Shown here: in pieces, positions 9,093 to 35,580 of the stretch
How positions within the stretch are numbered: the first letter of the stretch is position 1
Layout: every line of letters begins with the position of its first letter
NCBI GenBank assembly: GCA_031271665.1
Contig: JAISVI010000073.1
Location: 1-37,736, forward strand
DNA from: Oscillospiraceae bacterium
Lineage (GTDB): Bacteria > Bacillota > Clostridia > Oscillospirales > UBA929
Length of the DNA stretch: 37,736 bases
Direction: 5' to 3'
Position numbers and translations under genes: made by a program
The notes under the pieces: model-generated
Databases searched by the model: none
What the model was told of the DNA's origin: nothing
Seen by the model: only the letters and a program-made list of their open reading frames with translations

Positions 9093-9138
9093 TAGAGCCT
9101 GTTTACTATACGCGAACAGATGGTAAACAGGCTCTTAC
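9093..9138. repeat. Dispersed hairpin repeat, copy 1 of 2
   Basis: An inverted repeat of about 46 bases: GAGCCTGTTTAC at the left pairs with GTAAACAGGCTC at the right. A close relative with the same arms and the same centre inverted (CGCGAACAGAT) lies at 27235-27280. This copy abuts the stop codon of the butyrate kinase gene (TAA 9137-9135), and the other abuts the stop of a response-regulator gene. It is probably an extragenic palindromic element; a secondary role in 3'-end formation is possible, although it lacks a U-tract. Confidence 0.7.
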
Positions 9139-10559
9139 ACAAACGACTGCCGGGATTCGTATTCCGTGGGGGTTATCTCGCCGCGAAGCACCCTGAGCGC
9201 CCCGTCCAAAAGCGCAAGCATTTCATCCTCGCCCGGGAAGACATGTACGGGCGCGAAAGTGTCCACGCGCTGTTTAATCGCGCCGGTGAACCGGCTTGAG
9301 TGGGCAAGCCCGCCGGTAAGGATAATGGCGTCGATTTTGCCTTCCAGCACCGCCGCCATCGCGCCGATTTCCTTTGACACCTGATATGCCATCGAGTCCA
9401 TCACAAGGGCGGCGAACTCGTCGCCGTCGTTTATCATTTTCTGCACCCCGCGCAAATCGTTCGTTCCCAGATAGGCTCTAAGCCCGCCGCTTTTTACTAC
9501 GCGGTCAATCATTTCCTCCTGTGAAAACTCGCCCGAAAAGCACATGCGGATAAGCGGGACGGCGGGGATACCGCCGGAGCGCTCGGGCGTAAACGGGCCT
9601 TCGCCGGACAGCGCGTCGTTTACGTCAATCACGCGCCCGTAACGGTGCGCCCCCACCGTAATACCCCCGCCAAGGTGCGCCACAACAAAGCGGCAATTCT
9701 CATAGGGTTTATTAAGCTCAAGGGAAAGACGCCGCGCCACCGCCTTTTGGTTAAGCGCGTGGAACACGCTTGAACGCTCTATACCGGGAATCCCCGTAAG
9801 CTTCGCGTTCCTGTCCATCTCGTCCACAACGATTGGGTCAACAACAAAGGCCGGGATTTGAAGTTCCGCCGCTATTTCACTCGCGATAACCGCGCCCAAA
9901 GCGGACGCGTGTATCGCCGCCGTCGCGCGCCGCAAATCCTCAAGCATCGCGCCGTTAATACGATAGGTTCCGCTTTCAATCGGTTTAAGAAGCCCGCCCC
10001 GCCCCGCGACAGCATCAAGCGTCCCCATATCCAGCCCTGCCAAGGCAAGGTCGTTTATGACGCAGCGCTTGCGAAACTCCTTCTGGTCAAGCACCGAGCC
10101 GAACGCCGCAAGCTCTTCCTTATCGTGGCGCACGATTTTAAGAAGCATAAGGGTTTCGTCGTCGTAAAGCGCAAATTTAGTGGAGGTAGAGCCGGGGTTA
10201 AGCGTAAGAACCCGGTACGTCCCGTCGGTCTTAGGCGGGATGACGGCGCGCTCCTCTCCGTTTTCGTCCGGGGCGGTCTGCGCCTCGGCCTTTCTTTCTC
10301 TTGTAACCGTTTCGCCGTCCCGCAGTATACTTACGCTTAGTACGCAGTCAAGGTTTAAAAGCTGTTCCATCATGCCCGCAAGCTTCGTGTGCGTTCCCTC
10401 GATGGTGATTTCCATACGCGAGACTTGAGGGTTTTCAGTTTCGTCAACATAAAGACGTTTTATATTCCATCCCTCGTGACGGATATGAACGACCACCCTG
10501 TCAAGCGCTCCGGGGATGTTTTTAACGTTCATCCAAACGCTTTCCGCCGCTTTATCCAT
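9135..10559 (-). CDS. buk: Butyrate kinase with fused N-terminal ACT domain
   Basis: A 474-residue protein in two parts. Residues 1-80 look like the ACT domain of acetolactate synthase small subunit IlvN: NIPGALDRVVVHIRHEGWNI, VDETENPQVSRMEITIEG. Residues 114-474 are a full-length butyrate kinase of the ASKHA fold (NPGSTSTKFALYDD at 121-134, AHLGGG, then DVNDALSGEGPFTPERSG). The kinase interconverts butyryl-phosphate + ADP with butyrate + ATP; branched-chain acids are also substrates in some family members. A 30-residue charged linker joins the halves in one frame, and GGAGAAG precedes the ATG at 10559. No ptb gene is adjacent. The ACT domain suggests control by an amino acid, possibly a branched-chain one; that is inference. 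Confidence 0.93.
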   Translation of the reverse strand: MDKAAESVWMNVKNIPGALDRVVVHIRHEGWNIKRLYVDETENPQVSRMEITIEGTHTKLAGMMEQLLNLDCVLSVSILRDGETVTRERKAEAQTAPDENGEERAVIPPKTDGTYRVLTLNPGSTSTKFALYDDETLMLLKIVRHDKEELAAFGSVLDQKEFRKRCVINDLALAGLDMGTLDAVAGRGGLLKPIESGTYRINGAMLEDLRRATAAIHASALGAVIASEIAAELQIPAFVVDPIVVDEMDRNAKLTGIPGIERSSVFHALNQKAVARRLSLELNKPYENCRFVVAHLGGGITVGAHRYGRVIDVNDALSGEGPFTPERSGGIPAVPLIRMCFSGEFSQEEMIDRVVKSGGLRAYLGTNDLRGVQKMINDGDEFAALVMDSMAYQVSKEIGAMAAVLEGKIDAIILTGGLAHSSRFTGAIKQRVDTFAPVHVFPGEDEMLALLDGALRVLRGEITPTEYESRQSFV

Positions 10560-10685
10560 TTTAACTTCTCCAAAGTATATAAGATTTCAAGGTTTCGTTT
10601 TAGAAAAAAGGGTGCAGACCGCAGTCGGCGGGAGTTTTGACCGTGGGGGACAAGGGCAATCGCAACGCGTTTTTCGCGCGCGCCT

Positions 10686-29040: not shown

Positions 29041-30627
29041 TTATATTTTTACAGTCGCGCCAAGCGATACCCAACCCGCGCCGCTTTTGAGCTTGCCGAA
29101 GCCGCCTTGTTCCTCGACAATGGTATACACCCCGCCGTCTTTGATTGTCCCGGCAACGGCGGAACTCTCCGCCGGTCCCTTACGGTAGCTTGTCCCCCTC
29201 GCTATCTTCACGGTATAGGGAACTGCGTTTTGTGCGCCCGCTCCAACGTCCGCCGCCGCAACCCAACCCCACACGCCGCCGTTGTCCTCCGAAACAAGAT
29301 GAAGCGGGTATTTCGCGCCGCTGCTTAACTGCGTAACCTTACAACGGCTTGCGTCCTTCGCGGTGGCGGCTGTGGCGGCGTTAGACGATTTATAGACGCT
29401 TCCGCCGTTGAACTGTACAATGTCCCCCACTTTGTAAGCCGGGGGCGTGGCGGGCGTTGTAGGGGTCACGGGCGCGGTCGGCGGCGCGACGGTCGCGCCT
29501 TTTCCGGCGAACTTGTTATAATAGGTCTGCCCGTACTCCGCCCGCTTCGCCTGTACCGCCGCGCCCATGTCGGCGGGCTTTTCGTATTGCGTAAGTATCA
29601 GGTTGGAAGCCTGTAAAATGGACGTTGCGCTTTTAAGCGCGGTCACGATTCCCGCATAGCCCTGAAGCTCTTTCCATAAGAAATTGAGCTGTGCCGACAA
29701 GTCCCCGATTGACGCGCCCGCCGCTTTCACGAAGTCAAGCAACGCCTGTTTTCTGCTCCAAAACGTCCATTGCGCTAACCCATAGCCCGCGCTATCCCTT
29801 ACGAAGTTTGAATACGTCCCGTTGTCCACGGCGGCGGTATAGGTGGCGTCGGTGTAGCTTAATTTGTTTTCATAGCTGTTTTGGAGGTTGCGCGGGTTTA
29901 ATGCGCTTTCGGCAAATAGATTCCCCATTAAGCCCGCCGCCCCAAAAGCGTTCAAGCCTTTAGCAATGAGGAAGTCCCATATTGTTTTGTCAACGTCCCC
30001 GGTCGGCGCGGCGGGCGTCGGCGTTGGCGCGGGCGTTGCCGCCGCTCCGCTCTTTTTGGCAATGCTCAACGCGGCGGTGATTGCCTTAACAACGGCGGCG
30101 GCTATCGCGTCTTTGCTGTCAATAATCCATTGTGCCGTTGTCGTGTTGTCGTGGAAATTCACTTCGATTAAAACGGGCTGAACGCCCTTTTGCATGGGGG
30201 ACCGTATTTCCCCATACCCCGAACCCTCGAATTGCGTCATGCCGGACGCAACTTGCGAAGCCCTGTTTGACTTGTGCGGGCATACGGCGTTAAGCTCTTT
30301 GACAACCGCTTCCGCTATGGCTTTGCTTTTCGCGCTGTTCGGGTGATAGAACGCAACCGCGCCCGCCGCCGTGCATGGAGGTTTCCCGCCCGCTGCGTTG
30401 CTGTGAATCGCAATGTAAAAATCGCAACCGCTGTTTTTGGCTTCCTGTGGGCGTTCGTTCGCGCTGATTCCCATTGACAAGGTAGCCATAACGGTATCAC
30501 AAGAATAATCGCGGTCAAGCAACGCCTTAACCCTCGCGGCAACGGCTTCCATTTCTATTTTTTCCGTTGTGTTTCCCACAACGTACTTGTTGGCGGGCTG
30601 ATTGCTCGGGCTTAAATATAGCTTCAT
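29041..30627 (-). CDS. Modular endolysin: amidase + lysozyme-like domain + SH3-like repeats
   Basis: A 528-residue cell-wall hydrolase. Residues 1-190 are an N-acetylmuramoyl-L-alanine amidase (Amidase_3 type: FYIAIHSNAAGG, then VLIEVNFHDN with metal-ligand/catalytic residues). After a Pro/Ala/Thr linker (about 195-210) comes a phage-tail-lysozyme-like domain (about 212-345: GLMGNLFAESALNPRNLQ, GYGLAQWT). A second proline-rich linker leads to two SH3-like wall-binding segments (about 395-460 and 465-528). Two catalytic parts plus binding domains is typical for phages of Gram-positives. AGGAAA precedes the ATG at 30627. Confidence 0.9.
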   Translation of the reverse strand: MKLYLSPSNQPANKYVVGNTTEKIEMEAVAARVKALLDRDYSCDTVMATLSMGISANERPQEAKNSGCDFYIAIHSNAAGGKPPCTAAGAVAFYHPNSAKSKAIAEAVVKELNAVCPHKSNRASQVASGMTQFEGSGYGEIRSPMQKGVQPVLIEVNFHDNTTTAQWIIDSKDAIAAAVVKAITAALSIAKKSGAAATPAPTPTPAAPTGDVDKTIWDFLIAKGLNAFGAAGLMGNLFAESALNPRNLQNSYENKLSYTDATYTAAVDNGTYSNFVRDSAGYGLAQWTFWSRKQALLDFVKAAGASIGDLSAQLNFLWKELQGYAGIVTALKSATSILQASNLILTQYEKPADMGAAVQAKRAEYGQTYYNKFAGKGATVAPPTAPVTPTTPATPPAYKVGDIVQFNGGSVYKSSNAATAATAKDASRCKVTQLSSGAKYPLHLVSEDNGGVWGWVAAADVGAGAQNAVPYTVKIARGTSYRKGPAESSAVAGTIKDGGVYTIVEEQGGFGKLKSGAGWVSLGATVKI

Positions 30628-32067: not shown

Positions 32068-32549
32068 GCCGTACCGCCCGCCGCCGCAAGAATCGCGCCC
32101 ATACTCTCCGCAAGGTCGGCGGGTAACTCCGCGCCGTATGTTATCGCGTCAAGCTGTTTAAGGGTCGCTTTCTTAATCCATGCGTTTACATGGTTGCAAT
32201 ATGTCCTATGATAGAACACATGCGCCGTTGCCGCCGCCGCGATTGCGCCGAACTCCGCGGCGGGGTACATGCGGCAAAGCTCCCCGTCTGCGTGGTAGGG
32301 GACCGCTGCCGCGCCCTCTTTGATTGTCTGAAGCTGTGCCATAAGCTCCGTTTGGTCGTGTTCGGTCAAACTGTAATGCTTGCCGCCAACCTCCACCCCG
32401 GCATAAATGGCGGTGGTGCAAGCCGCGCCGATTTCCGCTTTCTTGACGGCGCGAACTTGCGTAACGCTATTCCAGTTGTCGGGCGGCGTGATTCCCATAT
32501 TGACAAGCCGCCGGTCCCTTATGCTGTCCTCTTTATGCTGTACGCTCAT
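32064..32549 (-). CDS. Probable tail-fibre accessory protein (DUF4376-like)
   Basis: A 161-residue protein with YHADGELCRMYPAAEFGAIAAAATAHVFYHRTYCNHVNAWI near its centre, a pattern I associate with DUF4376-like proteins downstream of tail-fibre genes. It overlaps the end of the variable-protein gene by four bases. A role in fibre assembly or attachment is inferred only from position. Confidence 0.55.
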   Translation of the reverse strand: MSVQHKEDSIRDRRLVNMGITPPDNWNSVTQVRAVKKAEIGAACTTAIYAGVEVGGKHYSLTEHDQTELMAQLQTIKEGAAAVPYHADGELCRMYPAAEFGAIAAAATAHVFYHRTYCNHVNAWIKKATLKQLDAITYGAELPADLAESMGAILAAAGGTA

Positions 32550-34276
32550 TCAAAATTACCCCCTAACCCGGCAATGAACAAATCGCCCTGGGCGGTTTGC
32601 CTGTCTGCCTTAATTCGGATATTGAAGCCCCAATTCGTCGCGGTTTTGGTCGTGTTCGTGAGGAAGAACTTGCTCCCGGCGATAACGGCGGCGGTCACGT
32701 CCTCCCATGTGGGCGTTGCGTCGAAGCCGTTGTTGCACACTTCAACGCTAAAGGTCGCGCCCGCGGGAATCTGCCGGGACACGTTCATAATCCCCTTCGT
32801 AACGGCGGCGTCGGCGGAAAGCGGCGTTGCAAGTGTAAACTCTATTTGCGTTTCGCTCTTGCTGAAGGTATATTGCCGGGTTGCGGTATCGCCGTAATTG
32901 TCCGTGACGGTGATTGTTAAGGTGTGCGAACCGTTGGTAATGGTGCGCCATTCGTCCGCCGTGACGCTGAAAGTATTTGTCGCGCCGGACGTTGCGGTAA
33001 AGCTCCGCTTCTGTTTGGCGTCGATTTTCTCAACAACCGTCAAGGTTTTTGTAATGCCGCTGTCCGGGTTCGTCACGTTGTAGGTCTGCGAAAACGCGCC
33101 CGTTTTCGCGCCCAAGTCGGCGTTGCTCCCGCTGATGGTCGGCGGGTTGCTGTTTATTACCGTTTGAACGCTCGCGGTCGTGTATGCGCTTTCGGCGTTG
33201 TTGTTGTCGTAGGCTTTCACCCGGTATTGAACCGAAGTCAACCCCGCCGTTATGGTGTCGGTATATGTGCGGTTGATACCCTTGTAAATTTGCGCGAACG
33301 CGCCCCCGTTGGTGGCGCGTTCGGCGATATAGCCGCTTATGCTCCCGTCCGAATCCGTGGACGCGCCCCAACTTATCGTTGCGGACTTCCCGCCCAACGC
33401 GGTTGTCGGCGGCGTTATGCCGTTCGGCGCGGTCGGGGGCTGATTCCATATAATCGTGTATGCGCCGTCACTATCAACGGAATCAGATACCAAGATTTCA
33501 GATGACAAATTACAAAGCGGACGAACGCCCCAGTGGCCGTGGTACGCGGTGTAGTAGTTCAGCGTCCCGGACGTGTAGACGTTGCGGACGATGTACGAAT
33601 TGGCGGCGGTGGGTGTTCTTAACCACCAATACCAAGCCGCCCCGGTGTTGAAGCTCGAACTTGTATAGTTACTGTTCGCCACGGCTTCGGCGGTCGGGTA
33701 CGCAAGCCGGGAAGTGTTGTCGCTGTATGCCGCTAAAATTGAACCCTCGGCAACGCTGTTTTCGTTGGTAAGCCCAACCTCTGTATTGGACGCAAGAAAG
33801 ATTTTGTCTGTAGCGGTTTCGCTCCCGCCGCCGTCCGTGACGGTGTTCTTCGCCACGGTTAGGGTTGTTTCCATTAGAGCGGCTTTCAGGCTCGCGGAGA
33901 AGCCCGCTAAAAAGCCCGCTTCCGTGTCATAGCCATTATAGTTTGCGCTGTTGGCGGTCGTCGGGGGCGCGTCTGCGGTATGTTGGGCGGTATACCATGC
34001 GTTAGCCGCCTTGTCGCTGTTTAGCCATTGCCGCAAGTTGCTATGTATATAGCGGTTGTTGCCGTAATTCTTGCGGTTGGCGTCGCTGTTGCTCGCTTCC
34101 TTGCCGTCAAAGGCTTTGAGGGCAATAATTTTGTCCGTCTGCAACGTGACGGAATTTGCGGGGTAGCCCGCATGGTTCTTGTCAACAACTCGGAAAATAA
34201 TAGGTTTCCCGAAGTAAAGGCTATTGGCTTCCTTTACCTTTGCGCCGACAAGCAATGCGCTTAACTTTTGGGGCAT
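32546..34276 (-). CDS. DGR variable protein, probable phage receptor-binding protein
   Basis: A 576-residue protein. Residues about 20-275 resemble DUF6273, a C-type-lectin-like/formylglycine-generating-enzyme-like fold (NNRYIHSNLRQWLNSD, WYWWLRTP, GVRPLCNLSSEI). The variable repeat encodes T221-L254, with substitutions relative to the template at 223, 229, 234, 241, 242, 243, 246, 248 and 249. Beyond it are a fibronectin-III domain (about 280-370), an Ig-like domain (about 375-470) and a C-terminal beta-rich region. The ATG at 34276 overlaps the RT gene by 16 bases with GAGG upstream, so the two should be co-translated. DGR targets usually have the variable repeat at the C-terminus; here 322 residues follow it. 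Confidence 0.9.
   Translation of the reverse strand: MPQKLSALLVGAKVKEANSLYFGKPIIFRVVDKNHAGYPANSVTLQTDKIIALKAFDGKEASNSDANRKNYGNNRYIHSNLRQWLNSDKAANAWYTAQHTADAPPTTANSANYNGYDTEAGFLAGFSASLKAALMETTLTVAKNTVTDGGGSETATDKIFLASNTEVGLTNENSVAEGSILAAYSDNTSRLAYPTAEAVANSNYTSSSFNTGAAWYWWLRTPTAANSYIVRNVYTSGTLNYYTAYHGHWGVRPLCNLSSEILVSDSVDSDGAYTIIWNQPPTAPNGITPPTTALGGKSATISWGASTDSDGSISGYIAERATNGGAFAQIYKGINRTYTDTITAGLTSVQYRVKAYDNNNAESAYTTASVQTVINSNPPTISGSNADLGAKTGAFSQTYNVTNPDSGITKTLTVVEKIDAKQKRSFTATSGATNTFSVTADEWRTITNGSHTLTITVTDNYGDTATRQYTFSKSETQIEFTLATPLSADAAVTKGIMNVSRQIPAGATFSVEVCNNGFDATPTWEDVTAAVIAGSKFFLTNTTKTATNWGFNIRIKADRQTAQGDLFIAGLGGNFE
33514..33615 (-). repeat. DGR variable repeat (VR)
   Basis: 102 bases matching the template at 35479-35580 except for nine changes, all where the template coding strand has A: AAC to ACC (twice), ATC, TAC (three times), CAC (twice), and AGG to TGG. 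The 3' end on the coding strand is an 18-base invariant GC-rich stretch before the sequences diverge, in the position of the initiation-of-mutagenic-homing (IMH) site. No BPP-1-like cruciform is obvious immediately after it. Confidence 0.97.
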
Positions 34277-35310
34277 TTTTCCTCACACTCCTTAAATAGT
34301 TTCGTGAAATATGCGTCCATATCGCGGACAAGATGGTAAGTGTTCCCGTGTTGCGCGTGTCCCCTCCAACTCTGATATGAGCTTTGAACCTTCTTAAAGC
34401 TCAACCCGCCCTTGACAAGCAAGCCCTTCATGCGTTTAAGCCGCCGCCGTGCGTTGTTCTTGCTCTTGCGGCGAATCTTGCGAATGACTTTGCCCGTTTC
34501 GGTCAAATAGGTGTGGAAGCCTAAAAAGTCAATGCCGTTCCGCAATGGGAAAAGGTTTGTCTTGTTGTTGAGCGATAGCCCCAACTCGCTTACGCGCTTT
34601 TCAATTTCTCCGCGGCATTTCTGCAAGTATTCCCTGTCCTCATGGATTAAGAAAAAATCGTCCATGTAACGCCCGTAATACTTGATTCCCAACTTTTCCT
34701 TTATGAAATGGTCTAAGCCGCTAAGATAGAGAACGGCGAACCATTGGGAAGTTTGGTTGCCTATCGGGATTCCGGGGCTTTCGGTTGAATCAATAATTAA
34801 ATCTATCAACCACAATGTATCTGTATCGGTGACGAACTTTCGCAACTGCTCTTTTAGAACGTCGTGCCGAATTGAATAGAAATATTTGCTTATGTCACAT
34901 TTGAGAACCCAACCGTCCATGCCGTGAAGCCTGTAATATTGGCGCATGAACCCTTCCAAGCGGTCAAGCCCGAAGTGTGTTCCCTTGCCGCGCTGTGTGG
35001 CGTAGTTGTCAAGGATAAAGGATTTCGACAACCGTTCTTCAAGCACGTTATCGCAAATTGAATGATGAACGATTTTGTCTTTGAACGCCGCGGACATTAC
35101 CGTTCGCCGTTTCGGTTCGTAAACCTCAAACGTCAAGTACGGGGACATTCTATAGGTCTTTCCCGTAAGCATGACATGGAGAAGGTGGAGGGCTTCAAGC
35201 AAATTCGCTTCAAACTTTGCGACGCTATCTTTCCCGCGCTTTCCCCGGCGTGATTTCTTAAACGCGGTGTGCAAGCTCTTGAACCCGCACACCTTTTCAA
35301 AGTCTGTCAT
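34261..35310 (-). CDS. DGR reverse transcriptase
   Basis: A 349-residue group-II-intron-like RT without maturase or endonuclease domains. Motifs are LKCDISKYFYSI (Asp139, domain 3), the DGR-type GIPIGNQTSQW (180-190; SQ instead of the SP common elsewhere), YMDD (215-218) and a basic thumb/C-terminus (about 272-300). It makes cDNA from the template repeat RNA with errors at adenines. I chose the ATG at 35310 because AGGAG lies nine bases upstream; an in-frame TTG at 35379 lacks such a site and would add 23 residues. The stop lies inside the variable-protein gene start. Confidence 0.95.
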   Translation of the reverse strand: MTDFEKVCGFKSLHTAFKKSRRGKRGKDSVAKFEANLLEALHLLHVMLTGKTYRMSPYLTFEVYEPKRRTVMSAAFKDKIVHHSICDNVLEERLSKSFILDNYATQRGKGTHFGLDRLEGFMRQYYRLHGMDGWVLKCDISKYFYSIRHDVLKEQLRKFVTDTDTLWLIDLIIDSTESPGIPIGNQTSQWFAVLYLSGLDHFIKEKLGIKYYGRYMDDFFLIHEDREYLQKCRGEIEKRVSELGLSLNNKTNLFPLRNGIDFLGFHTYLTETGKVIRKIRRKSKNNARRRLKRMKGLLVKGGLSFKKVQSSYQSWRGHAQHGNTYHLVRDMDAYFTKLFKECEEKCPKS

Positions 35311-35383
35311 ATAAAAATGCTCCTTGTCGCTTATAGCCTTTACCTTGCCAAAAATTGCGCAATGTATCAGCGTCAACAATCAT
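35297..35383 (-). CDS. 28-codon leader ORF overlapping the RT start
   Basis: ATG 35383 (MIVDADTLRNFWQGKGYKRQ...) with AAAGGCGG ten bases upstream ends at a TGA inside the first codons of the RT gene (ATGACAGACTTTGA), in a different frame. Its ribosome-binding site is part of a perfect inverted repeat CCGCC-TAAA-GGCGG. It may couple or throttle RT translation; expression as a peptide is unproven. Confidence 0.35.
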   Translation of the reverse strand: MIVDADTLRNFWQGKGYKRQGAFLYDRL

Positions 35384-35478
35384 GTATTTACCGCCTTTAG
35401 GCGGCGGCGGTGATATGCTTTCCTTTATTGGTGGTCCTCTGCTTTCAGCGTATAGCTTACTCGTTCGCGGTTTCCACT

Positions 35479-35580
35479 AAAGCGGACGAACGCCCCTGTT
35501 GCCGTTGTACGCGTTGTTGTTGTTCAGCGTCCCGGACGTGTTGACGTTGCGGACGTTGTACGAATTGGCGGCGTTGGGTG
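35479..35580 (-). ncRNA. DGR template repeat (TR) within the Avd-RT intergenic RNA
   Basis: A 102-base non-coding template between the avd-like gene and the RT gene. Read in the VR frame it contains ten AAC codons plus one AGG; eight AAC codons and the AGG differ in the VR. AAC mutated at its adenines can never give a stop, the usual DGR design. It contains 28 adenines on the coding strand, nine of them changed in the VR. The wider 35311-35608 gap also carries the leader ORF and hairpin above. Confidence 0.96.

Follow-up and report, generated by a model that had tools for sequence, protein, structure and literature searches.

What would an amino-acid-sensing ACT domain do on a butyrate kinase, and is the joint gene a real one? 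The question is raised by a single open frame in a stretch of 37,736 nucleotides from an Oscillospiraceae bacterium (the window, by which we mean the whole stretch of DNA that was analysed). A first reading of its letters, the original prediction, described an IlvN-like ACT domain at residues 1–80 and a complete butyrate kinase (Buk) at residues 114–474, joined in one frame by a charged linker and preceded by a good ribosome-binding site. All of this is borne out; the original prediction left only the strand, which is minus, unstated. The features of the gene are as follows.

9135..10559, minus strand: ACT–butyrate kinase fusion gene of 474 amino acids, an open frame with an ATG start and its stop codon at 9135–9137
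10320..10559, minus strand: ACT domain of the AHAS small-subunit type, residues 1–80 (Pfam match, alignment, predicted fold)
10221..10319, minus strand: linker, residues 81–113, charged, poorly conserved and predicted to be disordered (pLDDT 33 at residues 91–100)
9138..10220, minus strand: butyrate kinase domain, residues 114–474 (TIGR02707 match, invariant catalytic residues)
10568..10571, minus strand: GGAG, a Shine-Dalgarno-like motif in the sequence 8 nt before the ATG of the fusion gene

Residues 78–124, around the linker, contain no stop and no ATG, GTG or TTG codon. Hence the kinase part of the window gene cannot be started separately, and with neither a start nor a stop in the linker the ACT part is not a separately translated product. 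The ACT-then-Buk order is the same in the 29 other aligned open-frame fusions, and both Pfam families are matched by all 27 members of the fusion alignment A1.

The window also carries, at 32546–35580 on the minus strand, a diversity-generating retroelement. Its parts and the phage gene near it are:

34261–35379, minus strand: reverse transcriptase ORF (RVT_1)
32546–34276, minus strand: target ORF (DUF6273)
33514–33615 (in the target) and 35479–35580 (beside the reverse transcriptase), minus strand: copies of a 102-nt repeat
29041–30627: phage tail lysozyme/amidase gene

The repeat copies differ at nine positions, all nine at adenines of the template copy. With the phage tail lysozyme/amidase gene nearby, the retroelement probably lies within a prophage.

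The N-terminal part of the fusion belongs to the ACT domains of AHAS small subunits. In a Pfam search ACT_AHAS_ss (PF22629) matches residues 10–74 with 39.0 bits against a cut-off of 27 (E 9.4e-10), and every one of the 27 members of A1 matches it at E 0.001 or better. The AlphaFold model, made on 27 fusions (mean pLDDT 69.7), has the beta-alpha-beta-beta-alpha-beta order of an ACT fold, with strands at residues 4–13, 32–40, 46–55 and 73–80 and helices at 18–28 and 57–68. Model residues 2–84 superpose on AHAS regulatory subunits with Z 13–14 and rmsd 1.2–1.9. The best solved relative is E. coli IlvH (2f1f, Z 13.2, 37% identity over 79 residues), and the valine-bound plant AHAS complex 6vz8 is matched with Z 13.3 and rmsd 1.2.

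In E. coli IlvH the residues L9, N11, L16, N29 and V35 are tied to valine binding in a passage of PMC11893703, after Kaplun et al. 2006, and G14 is named the most important one for valine inhibition in a passage of PMC13158618. A gap-free alignment places IlvH L9, N11, G14, L16, N29 and V35 at V12, N14, G17, L19, N32 and V38 of the fusion. We compared these positions among 30 open-frame fusions, namely 26 of the 27 contig loci together with L006, L007, L008 and the window gene; L037 was left out for its frame shift, L005 because it shares its contig with L013, and L009 because its match contains one TAA. N14, G17, L19 and N32 are kept in all 30, V12 and V38 in 29. Conservation of all six positions by chance has P = 0.0016 against the baseline of all 80 ACT columns, 29 of which are conserved in at least 29 of the 30 fusions. 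In nine pairs of fusions dS, wherever it is computable, greatly exceeds dN for both the ACT and the Buk part, with the near-identical pair L015/L016 as the exception to a clear difference (0.025 vs 0.049 in the ACT part), and the linker evolves faster than either domain in eight of the nine pairs.

Judged from these alignments, the ACT domain is under selection and its predicted valine-type pocket is intact. The allosteric control by an amino acid that the original prediction suggested is well supported, as a prediction, by a pocket kept in 29–30 of 30 fusions. The conserved Gly and Asn may partly be due to the ACT fold itself, and the pocket could hold another small amino acid instead.

An ACT domain of this family might also serve acetolactate synthase in trans, as a substitute for IlvN, with the fusion tethering or coupling both enzymes. 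Three fusion genomes (G029, G033 and G040) have an AHAS large-subunit-like gene and no separate IlvN over the cut-off, as such a substitute would lead one to expect. However, a separate IlvN passes the cut-off in 25 of the 31 fusion genomes, with ilvB and ilvN adjacent in G000, and the fusion misses the threshold of the IlvN family TIGR00119 (43.9 vs 56.9 bits), matching profile positions 8–85 of 158 only and having no IlvN C-terminal domain. We hold a role as IlvN substitute to be very improbable. The related idea that the fusion stands in for a missing AHAS was rejected as well, the AHAS large subunit being over the cut-off in 25 of the 31 genomes and a separate IlvN likewise.

The C-terminal part is by sequence a butyrate kinase. 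TIGR02707 matches residues 116–464 with 499.3 bits against a cut-off of 289.1 (E 5e-150, profile positions 1–349 of 351), and the best solved relative is Thermotoga Buk2 (1x9j, Z 32.1 to the model); the model is of low confidence in places within the kinase, which makes a fine comparison of the active site unsafe. Eight positions taken as the catalytic site of the acetate/butyrate kinase family (N121, R187, H217, H267, H295, R327, E444 and E446) are invariant in all 33 fused kinase domains and are kept in 96–97 of the 97 plain ones. At a further 19 positions the fused domains share, with few or no exceptions, a residue that is seldom seen in plain ones, and several of these residues occur also in the unfused kinase of G629. 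Sequence likeness of this kind makes activity with butyrate or with branched C4–C5 acids putative.

If the gene were an assembly artefact or a chance read-through, in which the loss of a stop or mis-assembly had merged two adjacent genes, it should not recur. Within the window's family the full-length fusion is present in 6 of 18 genomes (the window's own, G005, G006, G007, G012 and G013). In a further genome of the family, G004, a piece of the fusion lies at a contig edge, where presence cannot be judged, and the single congeneric relative of the window's genome is without the fusion. Over 398 genomes across the phylum a Buk match was found in 165, and among the matches listed, in order of score, the ACT part is covered only in the window's own genome. 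In the order of the spirochaete carrier G030, 89 of 390 genomes have a Buk match, and in 16 the match reaches into the ACT part.

A scan of public genome contigs, in which the best 80 of 166 confirmed loci were used and more divergent fusions could thus be missed, extends this range. Its top 27 loci (L012–L038) cover both domains and, like the full-length relatives in five genomes of the family, are 61–71% identical to the window protein; the remaining 53 of these 80 cover the kinase only, at identities of at most 55%. The titles of the fusion records name Treponema, Spirochaetaceae, Spirochaetia, Oscillospiraceae, Christensenellaceae, Peptococcaceae and unplaced Bacillota or Clostridiales, and carriers span two phyla, Bacillota and Spirochaetota. 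The accessions of five of the 27 fusions (WQ and WR) lie in the range deposited by a study of higher-termite guts, as given in a part of PMC7024585; other fusion loci with similar sample codes are taken, without proof, to come from termite guts also. At least one fusion locus comes from a reactor. A plasmid search with the fusion returned 19 records, none of them covering 80% of the query. Rather than being common and annotated, the fusion is rare in the sampled genomes, and neither NCBIfam nor Pfam has a model for it.

Most carriers are metagenome-assembled genomes and the two parts of L037 stand in different frames, which is what an artefact could look like. However, 32 distinct intact fusions from two phyla form one clade, both domains are under purifying selection, and no unfused buk locus examined has an ACT gene nearby. 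Because the fusion recurs independently, we regard the artefact as refuted and its remaining probability as negligible.

The kinase trees bear on how the fusion came about. In a tree of 130 domains all 33 fused ones lie on one side of a branch with support 84, and in a careful tree of 53 domains the all-fused grouping has support 94/85, or 97/94 without L037. One change suffices to explain the fusion in 97% of 200 bootstrap trees of the 53-domain set. As far as sequences can tell, this supports a single origin. The sister of the fusions is an unfused kinase from G629 at 59% identity; no ACT gene lies near it, and the frame upstream is Fic-like. A precursor with an ACT gene beside a plain buk was sought in 195 sequences, namely 194 loci, some of them duplicates, and the window's first 20 kb; none was found, and the idea was rejected. 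L037, at 1063–2548 of its record, is the deepest-branching fusion and the one relative with its parts in different frames: the ACT frame (1063–1482) and the Buk frame (from 1424) overlap out of frame, which would reflect faulty assembly, a damaged gene or a form with its two parts separate.

Twenty spirochaete fusions form, with one Bacillota sequence, a group with support 99/94 that is nested among Bacillota. The simple reading of this nesting is that the fusion passed from phylum to phylum at least once; a tree in which the spirochaete fusions form a clade of their own is not rejected (p 0.34). In the 53-domain tree a Bacillota fusion, L008 from G007, groups with the Treponema fusion L030 at 96/88, possibly by a transfer back or by a binning error.

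The fusion has left the ptb–buk partnership. Among contig-scan loci whose flanks reach at least 1.5 kb in both directions, a Ptb/Pta-family gene lies within 3 kb of 40 of 45 plain buk genes and of none of 20 fusion genes (Fisher p 2e-12, relatedness ignored). Without the flank rule ptb is nearby in 49 of 58 plain loci and in none of 28 fusion loci. We also counted genome content in 31 fusion genomes (L035 left out), telling Ptb from Pta by profile scores. A Ptb-type gene is present in eight (G005, G006, G028, G029, G030, G031, G033 and G036) and was not found in 23, among them G000, which is 94% complete. Since many of these genomes are incomplete, each single absence is provisional; the overall pattern is not.

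Pta or PduL is present in 28 of the 31 genomes, and AckA passes the cut-off in 27, which led us to reject the idea that the fusion replaces acetate kinase. Where Ptb is missing, Pta or PduL would have to provide the CoA step, unless the acyl phosphate is used in some other way.

In five of the eight genomes with a Ptb-type gene, ptb lies next to an ordinary, unfused buk at a site apart from the fusion (G005:C60, G028:C367, G031:C24, G033:C220 and G036:C4); such genomes provide a natural contrast for the role of the fusion.

The neighbours of the fusion are mixed housekeeping genes, with no conserved neighbour that names a pathway. Only a Treponema group shares neighbours, two or three genes. 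In this group (L019, L020, L022, L024, L034 and, partly, L018) two genes of clusters C2 and C1 precede the fusion on the same strand, a glycogen-debranching-like gene and a small HAD-like gene.

The decoupling from Ptb, in neighbourhood as well as in genome content, would suit a kinase whose function has shifted, either to a different carboxylate or to a role independent of Ptb in which, for example, its acyl phosphate serves as a signal or donates acyl groups, and whose ACT domain reads branched-chain amino acids as a sign of nutrient supply. The 19 positions that set fused domains apart point the same way, and so do the closest unfused relatives, G629 and L039, which have no ptb nearby either. 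Against such drift stand the TIGR02707 score, far above its cut-off, and the unchanged catalytic positions. We consider it unlikely.

The original prediction had also offered a role in branched-chain acid fermentation. This is weakened, since the required phosphotransacylase partner adjoins ordinary buk genes and not fusion genes, and most fusion genomes are without Ptb. Butyrate kinases yield ATP in fermentation, and in a catabolic version of the enzyme branched-chain amino acids would activate the kinase, and the branched acyl phosphates formed in their breakdown would yield ATP and branched-chain acids. Genes like those of 2-oxoacid oxidoreductases, present in 38 of 38 genomes searched, would fit, although relatives that lack the fusion carry IOR genes too; in G000 an IorAB set occurs together with phenylacetate-CoA ligases. 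In G033, IOR alpha, ptb and a plain buk lie within about 5 kb, plausibly as a degradation module. This module with its Ptb adjoins the ordinary buk while the fusion gene is elsewhere, which, with the lack of ptb at all 20 fusion loci, counts against the catabolic version. We think it improbable, if slightly less so than drift of the kinase.

We suggest, with rather more confidence than doubt, that the fusion is an acyl kinase of the butyrate type under allosteric control by a branched-chain amino acid, most likely with feedback inhibition of branched-chain acid activation. We infer the ligand, the sign of the effect, the direction, the substrate and the assignment of the CoA step to Pta or PduL. 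The proposed working is as follows.

Step 1: The N-terminal ACT domains would pair, with Val, Leu or Ile bound at the interface, as in the AHAS small subunit. Binding of the amino acid would change the activity of the kinase through the flexible linker.

Step 2: The kinase would interconvert a short or branched carboxylic acid and ATP with acyl phosphate and ADP. The most likely sense of the control would be feedback inhibition of the activation of isobutyrate, 2-methylbutyrate and isovalerate.

Step 3: Pta or PduL would supply the CoA step, and the activated branched-chain acids would feed the synthesis of branched-chain amino acids or of fatty acids.

In Listeria, Buk–Ptb activates extracellular 2-methylbutyrate, according to a section of PMC10026030. 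Given this precedent, and carriers that mostly make their own branched-chain amino acids, end-product inhibition of acid activation is modestly favoured over a gain of ATP. Two points count against the proposed working as a whole. AHAS in 25 of 31 carriers means that salvage is not their sole source of branched-chain amino acids, and with Ptb missing from 23 of 31 the conversion of acyl phosphate into acyl-CoA would depend on Pta or PduL, neither of which appears in G006, G020 and G025.

Both halves of the fusion are known families. Like Buk (TIGR02707; Thermotoga maritima Buk2, 1saz and 1x9j) it has the whole kinase domain, about 50% identical by Foldseek and with Z 32, and keeps the catalytic residues; unlike Buk it has about 113 extra N-terminal residues with the ACT domain, no adjoining ptb and the 19 positions fixed differently. 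It shares the ACT fold and the valine-related positions with the AHAS small subunit IlvH/IlvN (2f1f, 6vz8), from which it differs in being covalently joined to a kinase of another family, in having no small-subunit C-terminal domain and in scoring below the family cut-off. In aspartate kinase, threonine deaminase and PGDH an ACT domain is likewise attached to a metabolic enzyme and expected to bind an amino acid, and these enzymes make the amino acid or a precursor of it. We know of no short-chain acyl kinase of the acetate kinase family among ACT-regulated enzymes. In the open full-text literature, from which subscription journals are mostly missing, no paper joins 'butyrate kinase' and 'ACT domain'; what a search for ACT domain, acetate kinase and fusion returned concerns acetyl-CoA synthetase, by title and start of abstract; among the papers listed on butyrate kinase and allostery none is about such regulation by title, and those on ACT architectures include nothing that fits. 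As far as we have found, the combination and its separation from Ptb have not been described.

Databases probably label the fusions as plain butyrate kinase, since they pass that model. Genome-based predictions of butyrate production would then overlook the regulation and perhaps the pathway as well. If the regulation is true, the fusion would also be an acyl kinase with built-in allosteric control, available for engineering.

Butyrate and acetate kinases are usually regarded as governed by mass action and gene expression. A conserved sensor fusion would make one branch of the family a regulated metabolic valve. More speculatively, and with considerable doubt, we propose a distinct, horizontally spread class of acyl kinases that carry out the first step of a Ptb-independent activation of branched short-chain acids and are feedback-inhibited by branched-chain amino acids. 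Termite-gut and sludge bacteria would thereby choose between taking up such acids and making branched-chain amino acids from pyruvate, the sensor module of acetolactate synthase having been borrowed for another route to these amino acids. The fusion suggests an undescribed feedback link from branched-chain amino acids to an acyl kinase in some gut and sludge bacteria, which would tie their short-chain acid metabolism to branched-chain amino acid status.
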